This document shows, one piece after another, positions 56,379 to 57,216 of a stretch of 64,000 nt of DNA; position 1 is the first letter of the stretch, and each line of letters starts with the position of its first letter. The stretch comes from an uncultured Sphingomonadaceae bacterium (GTDB taxonomy: Bacteria; Pseudomonadota; Alphaproteobacteria; Sphingomonadales; Sphingomonadaceae). The DNA is taken from assembly GCA_947493215.1 (NCBI GenBank), contig CANLQE010000001.1, forward strand, positions 2,109,404-2,173,403, in the 5' to 3' direction. Position numbers and translations under genes: made by a program. The notes under the pieces are model-generated. The model saw nothing but the letters and a program-made list of their open reading frames with translations, was not told where the DNA came from and did not search any database.

Positions 56379-56449
56379 CCTCTCCCCTTTGAGGGAGAGG
56401 ACAACGAAGACTTAGCGCCGCCGGTGCTTAGTCGCAGTCGGAGAGGGGG
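56379..56449 (+). repeat. Palindromic repeat unit A (forward)
   Basis: Starts with the GC hairpin CCTCTCCC / GGGAGAGG (loop CTTTGA), then a second imperfect hairpin built on GACTTAGC ... GCTTAGTC, and ends in GGAGAGGGG. First of five related copies around the DUF559 gene; it is the most divergent at its 3' end. Confidence 0.85.
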
Positions 56450-56481
56450 CAGCGTCTGAACACAAAGCCAGTGCATGTTGC

Positions 56482-56554
56482 CCACCCCTCTCTAAGACTT
56501 GCTAAGGCAATAAATTGCCAAGCCAAGTCTTTTCTCTCCCTCAGGGGGAGAGAA
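56482..56554 (-). repeat. Palindromic repeat unit B (reverse)
   Basis: Same architecture in reverse orientation: read on the minus strand it runs from the CTCTCCCCCTGAGGGAGAG hairpin through GACTTG ... GCAATTTATTGC ... CAAGTC to AGAGGGGTGGG. Faces unit A, making an inverted pair. Confidence 0.85.
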
Positions 56555-56615
56555 GTAAAATCTACATCCCTCAATCTGCGCTCATATGATCGGATTTACG
56601 ATATTATTCTATTTT

Positions 56616-56684
56616 CCTCTCCCCCTGAGGGAGAGGAAACCAAAGCCTTAGCAATTTATTGCTTAGGCGACGTTGGTGAGGGGT
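56616..56684 (+). repeat. Palindromic repeat unit C (forward), encodes the DUF559 C-terminus
   Basis: Hairpin CCTCTCCCCCTGAGGGAGAGG, then ACCAAAGCCTTAGCAAT paired with ATTGCTTAGGC...TTGGT, then TGAGGGGT. The reverse strand of its right half supplies the last nine codons and stop of the DUF559 gene. Confidence 0.9.
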
Positions 56685-57027
56685 GCTGAGAAAGCGCATC
56701 CAATATCGCAGTCAAAACTCCCTCTAAATTCTCGTTTATCTCATTATTCCAGAAACGTAGTACCGTATAGCCACGTTCCTCCATCCATTTATCGCGCCTT
56801 GCATCATGTCCACTATCACTATGCTGCGATCCATCTGCTTCAACAACCAGTTTCATTTCCTGACAAACAAAATCAGCGATATACGGGCCAAGTGGCTGCT
56901 GCTTGCGGAATTTGAAATTACTCAACTGTCGGTTGCGGATGCGATTCCACAGAATGTTTTCTTGTGGCGTCATTTCGCGGCGTAGATGTTTGGCGCGTTT
57001 GAGTGTGATTGGCTCATATCCAGTCAT
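56656..57027 (-). CDS. DUF559 domain protein (Vsr-like endonuclease fold)
   Basis: A 123-residue protein of the DUF559 family, related to very-short-patch-repair and PD-(D/E)xK nucleases. The N-terminal LRREMTPQENILWNRIRNRQ is diagnostic, and the nuclease-type residues appear as PYIADFVCQEMKLVVEADGSQH and VLRFWNNEI. Its last residues (HPSPTSPKQ) are encoded by repeat unit C, and its start lies 20 bases from repeat unit D. The gene and its two inward-facing repeats form a compact cassette of about 500 bp. DNA nicking or cleaving is inferred from the fold, not shown. Confidence 0.88.
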   Translation of the reverse strand: MTGYEPITLKRAKHLRREMTPQENILWNRIRNRQLSNFKFRKQQPLGPYIADFVCQEMKLVVEADGSQHSDSGHDARRDKWMEERGYTVLRFWNNEINENLEGVLTAILDALSQHPSPTSPKQ

Positions 57028-57045
57028 AACCTTCTGCGCGCCTTC

Positions 57046-57114
57046 TACCCCTCACCAAGATTTTCTAACGAACAAGTTCGTAAGCAAATCTGTCCTCTCC
57101 CTCAAGGGGAGAGG
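57046..57114 (-). repeat. Palindromic repeat unit D (reverse)
   Basis: Read on the minus strand: CCTCTCCCCTTGAGGGAGAGG hairpin, AGATTTGCTTACGAAC paired with GTTCGTTAG..AAATCT, then TTGGTGAGGGGTA. It mirrors unit C across the DUF559 gene. Confidence 0.88.
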
Positions 57115-57145
57115 AAAAGTGGCCGAAACTGCAAAGAACAACCCT

Positions 57146-57216
57146 CCTCTCCCCTTGAGGGAGAGGAAACCAAAGCCTTAGCGCCGTAGGCGGTTAGGCG
57201 ACGTTGGTGAGGGGTA
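57146..57216 (+). repeat. Palindromic repeat unit E (forward)
   Basis: CCTCTCCCCTTGAGGGAGAGG hairpin, ACCAAAGCCTTAGCGCC paired with GGCGGTTAGGC...TTGGT, then TGAGGGGTA. It lies nine bases from the 3' end of lpdA and could end its transcript. Very similar to unit C outside the inner stem. Confidence 0.9.

Follow-up and report, generated by a model that had tools for sequence, protein, structure and literature searches.

In the REPIN-RAYT system, a nuclease gene is bracketed by its own repeat, the gene is vertically stable, and gene-less inverted doublets of the repeat are dispersed through the genome, as set out in the available parts of PMC8049555 and PMC3733652. The former text describes RAYT as vertically inherited and REPIN singlets as remnants of doublets, and it reports more copies in those E. 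coli strains that have the gene. A second family, the CGTC REPs, is described in the accessible text of PMC3733652 as palindromic, arranged in inverted dimers and having no known transposase, with a CGTC tag and a stem whose first and second positions are AT. A third is the intrastrand triplex motif BoxC/PIT/TM, which the part of PMC4666352 available to us documents in E. coli and more than 260 genomes and names a class II purine triplex, built from a pyrimidine arm, a purine arm and a mirrored purine third strand. According to the same text, these motifs are intergenic and spread over many species, some of them stand in inverted pairs in E. coli, and where motifs are paired, small deletions occur that leave a hairpin; the triplex was demonstrated in vitro for the E. 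coli motif, its formation in vivo was not supported, and neither an association with transposons, phages or plasmids nor a partner gene is given there.

Here we describe repeats that resemble the BoxC/PIT motif and bracket a nuclease gene. The window, a stretch of 64,000 nucleotides from an uncultured Sphingomonadaceae bacterium, contains within about 840 bases five repeat units, in the orientations described in a first-pass annotation, and a gene for a 123-residue DUF559 (PF04480) protein of predicted endonuclease fold (56656..57027, minus strand), identified by its open reading frame, Pfam match, AlphaFold2 model and fold match. Unit A (56379..56449, plus strand) consists of a hairpin (CCTCTCCC/GGGAGAGG), a second hairpin and the tail GGAGAGGGGG, and forms the left half of a gene-less inverted pair whose right half is unit B (56484..56553, minus strand), which ends in AGAGAGGGGT; in this pair the hairpins lie outside and the tails inside, with no gene between them. 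The same topology recurs around the DUF559 gene, which, as had been noted, is flanked by unit C on its left (56616..56684, plus strand; tail GGTGAGGGGT) and unit D on its right (57047..57114, minus strand), both with their tails facing the gene. The coding sequence runs with its final codons into unit C, and some 20 bp upstream of its start codon lies unit D. Unit E (57146..57215, plus strand) is solitary and adjoins lpdA; in the relative G027 its place is taken by a pair of the A/B type. The terminal motif that had been assigned to all five units holds for C, D and E (TGAGGGGT) but not for A and B. Folded as single-stranded DNA, each unit forms two hairpins, with z values against shuffled sequences from -1.9 (A) to -5.6 (D).

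Judged by motif, the window repeats are related to the BoxC/PIT intrastrand triplex: they combine a pyrimidine/purine hairpin with a following purine third strand that mirrors the purine arm. In sequence the tail mirrors this arm except that T may stand for A, as in GGGAGAAGG with GGATGAGGG and GGGAGGGG with GGGGTGGG, and this is the code of a purine-motif triplex; in principle the four G-runs might instead form a quadruplex. Third strands fit their own arm better (0.915) than do permuted tails of other loci (0.828; highest of 200 permutations 0.841), and of 254 cases, a mirror of the arm describes the tail better than a direct copy does in 106, less well in 9 and equally well in 139. This third-strand mirror goes beyond what the first-pass annotation saw. 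Unlike BoxC/PIT, the window type carries a further hairpin, placed between the arm and the third strand, and the stem of this hairpin covaries: across 30 distinct segments it is 82% paired, compared with 55.5% when partners are shuffled, and none of 5,000 shuffles was as high, which bears out the earlier proposal of selection on its folded structure. For this comparison segments were cut by flanking anchors, and the 5 of 44 units that had no anchor were left out. The anchored test replaced the best-stem length in shuffled linkers, which was dropped as uninformative because long loops allow chance stems; a MAFFT alignment of the units placed the second hairpin out of register. An Rfam search gave 13 matches, all below their gathering scores. 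Two other identities were considered and rejected. GTAG REPs of the RAYT kind do not fit, as no GTAG was seen by eye at the hairpin foot, and CGTC REPs do not fit either, the stems here starting CCTCTCCC and both stems and CGTC tag differing at the DUF559 genes examined.

The protein encoded between units C and D belongs to PF04480 (E = 2.4e-41; 140.4 bits against a curated cut-off of 20.6). The AlphaFold2 model of the matched 103 residues has a mean pLDDT of 87, and a Foldseek search with it returned 3HRL (NGO0050; E = 2.9e-9), 3R3P (I-Bth0305I; E = 1.7e-4) and 1VSR (Vsr; E = 4.1e-3). I-Bth0305I is an EDxHD homing endonuclease whose catalytic-domain fold the DUF559 model resembles (TM-score 0.72 by query length; sequence profile E = 0.00075); its PDB entry names it a "mobile intron protein", whereas DUF559 here is a lone domain bracketed by repeats. 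Residues R7, E14, W18, Q34, D43, E54, D56, G57 and H60 (numbered along the matched stretch; add nine for the protein) are each conserved at 1.00 among 161 proteins, and the modelled fold together with E14, D43, E54, D56 and H60, putative residues of catalytic type, places the protein in the Vsr/EDxHD group of the PD-(D/E)XK fold. The protein is under strong purifying selection, with dN/dS between 0.04 and 0.25 in nine pairs. It thus differs in kind from RAYT, an HUH tyrosine transposase: Pfam at E up to 10 gave DUF559 and MTES_1575 and nothing of the HUH tyrosine type, and among the PADLOC anti-phage defence profiles no family matched the window protein at E of 0.01 or below. Its DUF559 domain and Vsr-like character are shared with Caulobacter VsrA, which the accessible part of PMC12907096 presents as a DNA-damage-inducible, proposed mismatch-repair nuclease tied to a cytosine methyltransferase, without mention of repeats. 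As separate observations, the DUF559 model also matched apicomplexan and ciliate mitochondrial ribosome proteins in the fold search, and the DUF559 matches at G004:C1:3533879 and G024:C4:121558 (L196, L197), at G024:C2:653536 and at G010:C36:13337 lie within open frames, of 442 aa and of 1997 and 1959 aa, that may encode fusion proteins.

Further copies of the repeat exist elsewhere in the same genome. The pattern CCTCTCCCN2-8GGGAGAGG occurs at nine places in the 3.69-Mb genome, four of them inside these 840 bases. Outside this stretch, four places are parts of three inverted pairs (L003/L004, L005 and L010) and the fifth is solitary (L011); the arms of the pairs lie about 137 bp apart with no DUF559 gene between them, and in L005 and L010 one arm each carries a mismatch. 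The A/B pair and these three pairs are therefore REPIN-like doublets, that is, two inverted units with a short spacer, dispersed in the genome. A second DUF559 gene of this genome (G000:C4), with a neighbour that we take to be a recN-like gene, is likewise bracketed by an inverted pair, but of another palindrome, CCCCTCC/GGAGGGG, that has the tail TTGGGGTGG.

Bracketing by inverted repeats proved to be general among DUF559 genes. Within the genus, PF04480 is present in 29 of 32 genomes, and 54 of the 60 scored genes have flanks inverted to each other, mostly hairpins, at a score of at least 30 (the best local alignment of the left flank against the reverse complement of the right flank). The 60 come from 67 rows found and include two split or broken genes and one partial match; left unscored were G012:C150, which lies at the edge of its contig, along with three fragmentary rows and three weak matches, two of the latter in very long frames. 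Thirty of 31 loci in a first genus set reached this score, as against 2 of 93 outer control placements; in a second set 24 of 29 did so, and of the 28 loci in it for which 10 or more controls were available, 23 had the true gene ranked above all controls from the same locus. For comparison, 1 of 25 ParE toxin loci in this genus reached a score of 30, a further locus having been left out as truncated.

Beyond the genus, 21 of 29 alphaproteobacterial loci, chosen as best-scoring genes and not by random draw, scored at least 35. A scan of bacterial genomes supplied a set of named loci, and in 61 of the 74 with at least 10 controls the true gene outranked all of these; the sample is not random for DUF559 because it was picked by similarity to the window type. 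Of 80 named loci 79 could be scored (L146 was too short), and L090 was dropped as an artefact of a run of N; the two figures for this set are 61/74 and 58/78 without L090, and 62/75 and 59/79 with it. Bracketed named loci include metagenome-assembled genomes (MAGs) labelled Gastranaerophilales, Chloroflexi, Nitrospira, Spirochaetae, Desulfarculus and Desulfococcus; those failing the flank ranking include both Buttiauxella loci and the Desulfobacterota locus L145. Plasmid-borne DUF559 genes of Deinococcus, cyanobacterial and Azospirillum isolates ranked top in six of seven cases, against 14 controls each. Units of hairpin plus third strand were detected in 113 of 170 gene flanks compared with 5 of 717 control windows, the latter taken from longer loci. 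Over 168 loci the same detector found a unit on at least one side in 142, on both sides in 97 and on neither in 26; it misses most of the P2 group, which has a long hairpin loop and passes the flank alignment only. The idea that DUF559 is the partner of these repeats, raised from the single locus, is thus strongly and generally supported by the flanks, the units and the copy numbers given below, and the enrichment of DUF559 genes beside such repeats in related genomes extends far beyond the window.

DUF559 genes might merely lie in repeat-rich intergenic stretches, with the repeats acting as terminators or arising by replication slippage. Different repeat families do occupy the same intergenic place in different species, as seen at two sites, but the same-locus control placements and the ParE genes do not show the effect, the third-strand side faces the gene in 168 of 199 one-way flanks, and the type of the arm follows the protein. 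Already disfavoured on these grounds, passive neighbourhood is, in our estimate, very improbable.

The match between protein and arm is evident both across loci and within the genus. Arm sequence and protein distance correlate with a Mantel r of 0.159 over 138 loci and of 0.296 within the genus (n = 45), in neither case equalled by any of 2,000 permutations, and the arm of the nearest protein neighbour lies within one mismatch in 85 of 138 loci, where 31% is expected. Kinship of the loci contributes to this correlation.

The number of repeat copies also tracks the gene. Among 337 alphaproteobacterial genomes, at least three copies of the pattern were present in 55 of 84 with a strong DUF559 match, compared with 12 of 228 without one, so that gene and repeats co-occur between genera (odds ratio 34; Fisher p = 5.6e-28, descent ignored); genomes with a weak PF04480 match (E > 1e-10) reached three copies in 2 of 25. 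The comparison within families is the one that allows for descent: across all 33 taxonomic families holding both states, including f84 and f90 (both ties), 22 showed the expected direction, 6 were tied and 5 were opposite. Inside the genus the effect is weak: remote copies matched by type were slightly more numerous where the matching gene was present (p = 0.03 and 0.04), and a gene of non-matching type had no cross effect (p = 0.61 and 0.87).

In E. coli the DUF559 gene is ycjD (sapF-ycjD-fabI), which carries BoxC-type repeats on one side only. The T-T-A second loop of the repeat by ycjD/fabI corresponds to type A as given in the available text of PMC4666352. With ycjD plus the neighbouring repeat as query, at least 80% was covered in 3365 of 5426 E. 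coli genomes; the repeat alone matched 5357 of 5426, at 1 to 26 places (median 14), so ycjD is not needed to keep some copies. Further BoxC-like places numbered a median of 13.5 (4-21) in 38 E. coli records with ycjD and 3 (1-10) in 21 without (p = 1.5e-9, descent ignored), the sample being 60 rows taken at even steps from which one 155-kb plasmid record was dropped. At least 10 further places were present in 35 of the 38 records with the gene, whereas those without it held 1-5 places in 14 and 7-10 in the other 7; five of the 21 still hold 10 places, among them two records labelled O157:H7 with 10 each. Strains of one lineage share both the loss of the gene and the copy number. A first count gave 4-5 places for each of 12 rows that have ycjD and 3-5 for each of 7 that cover only sapF, but it is uninformative on BoxC number because its places include sapF and fabI. 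Three examined strains without ycjD have at that place an efflux operon, which is described in the available part of PMC12817139. More copies accompany the partner gene, then, in the class and in E. coli, as they do in REPIN-RAYT systems according to the available text of PMC8049555.

Such a difference in copy number could also arise if DUF559 served the host, trimming or repairing folded strands or T:G mismatches without spreading the repeats, the brackets then being binding or autoregulatory sites. The strong purifying selection, the vertical stability of the gene and the fold match to Vsr suit a repair or clearance role, as do the inducibility by DNA damage and the proposed repair function of VsrA in the accessible text of PMC12907096; the deletions leaving a hairpin in that of PMC4666352 resemble the single-hairpin sites found here, and a nuclease that shields cells from repeats would also let more copies persist. 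An extra step is nonetheless needed to explain why genomes and strains with DUF559 hold many more copies and why arm and protein clade match. We regard such a host-serving function as unlikely, though it is the strongest of the alternatives.

The gene itself barely moves within the genus, where the protein tree follows chromosomal position. The 60 DUF559 genes occupy 9 shared positions and 3 single ones (the lpdA position lumping both sides of lpdA), and a protein tree of 57 rows, with few columns and many open forks, implies 9 changes of position, close to the minimum possible of 8 and far from the shuffled mean of 35.8. On the time scale of the genus, the mobile cassette envisaged in the first-pass annotation is therefore not supported, and it is improbable that C-DUF559-D is itself a selfish cassette, a homing or transposable element of minimal size (about 500 bp) moving as one piece. 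That possibility accords with the inverted ends around the gene in most scored loci, the closeness of the fold to the homing endonuclease I-Bth0305I, the permuted order of cassette and pair in G027, the presence of DUF559 genes on either side of lpdA in different species, and the different slots of the hpa operon that the gene occupies in plasmids of two Deinococcus species; the few shared positions and the near-minimal number of changes speak against it. The cases of G027, lpdA and the hpa operon do show that rearrangement takes place locally. DUF559 genes were also observed inside hpa and paa catabolic clusters on Deinococcus plasmids (L314, L315, L319).

The gene-less pairs vary between species at fixed sites, two of which were followed, in 13 and 15 of the 32 genomes. 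At the L003 site (13 genomes) a pair of the window type is present in 4 (one flipped), a pair of the recN type in 3, a single hairpin in 5 and another hairpin in 1. At the L005 site (15 genomes) there is a window-type pair in 6 (one flipped), a single hairpin of the window type in 2, another hairpin in 1, a CGTC-like pair in 3, an unrelated insert in 2 and nothing in 1, so that a single intergenic site can hold one or another of several unrelated families of repeats. The CGTC-like REP pairs there are L271, L277 and L283 (G006, G023 and G012). It is G030 whose gene-less pair has the opposite orientation to that in the other species, at L003 as well as at L005 (L287 and L259), which suggests inversion between the arms of the pair. 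At the window's own site, seven genomes have both neighbour genes: four carry the cassette, and in three (G024, G030 and G031; L155, L156 and L161) a different inverted palindrome pair, ACTCCTGCGCAGGCAGGAGT-CCATCTCC ... GGAGATGG-GCCCCTGCCTGCGCAGGGGC, replaces it between ami and lpdA. Gene-less pairs thus turn over at fixed sites, but at the two sites followed most "empty" places hold a single hairpin or another repeat; among the few clean ones no clean pre-insertion site was found, and no target-site duplication was seen by eye.

We consider it probable that this locus is the home copy of a two-part system resembling RAYT-REPIN, made up of a structure-specific DUF559 nuclease and its own repeats of the BoxC/PIT type. 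In such a system the nuclease gene would sit inside one inverted pair and stay put by vertical descent, and gene-less inverted pairs of the same family would be its satellites elsewhere in the genome. The DUF559 protein would bind repeats of its own family in their folded form, probably where replication leaves the strand single, and may nick at the boundary between hairpin and tail; repair of the break could then copy a pair to other sites, often ones with a GC hairpin in place beforehand, or, alternatively, collapse a pair to one hairpin. The partnership of gene and repeats is established here by association. It is likely that the protein acts on them, with copying by the nuclease as the leading, still unproven, mechanism.

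More broadly, we lean towards seeing in DUF559/YcjD the nuclease dedicated to BoxC/PIT triplex repeats throughout bacteria, and in the two together a mobility or maintenance system of non-HUH type in which each nuclease clade would recognise its own fold of hairpin plus third strand and copy gene-less pairs as its own gene stays in place. The open-access literature searched, which leaves aside preprints and most subscription journals, yielded no link of DUF559 or ycjD to BoxC or triplex repeats, and to our knowledge BoxC-type repeats have had no known partner for three decades. Because it is bracketed by them in several phyla, DUF559 is a prime candidate for spreading or processing such repeats. 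The bracketed loci come from Proteobacteria, Deinococcota and cyanobacteria as well as from several further groups, in part as MAGs; the repeats thereby gain a candidate partner and DUF559 a candidate substrate. If this reading is true, the system would represent a second, unrelated solution to the RAYT-REP arrangement.
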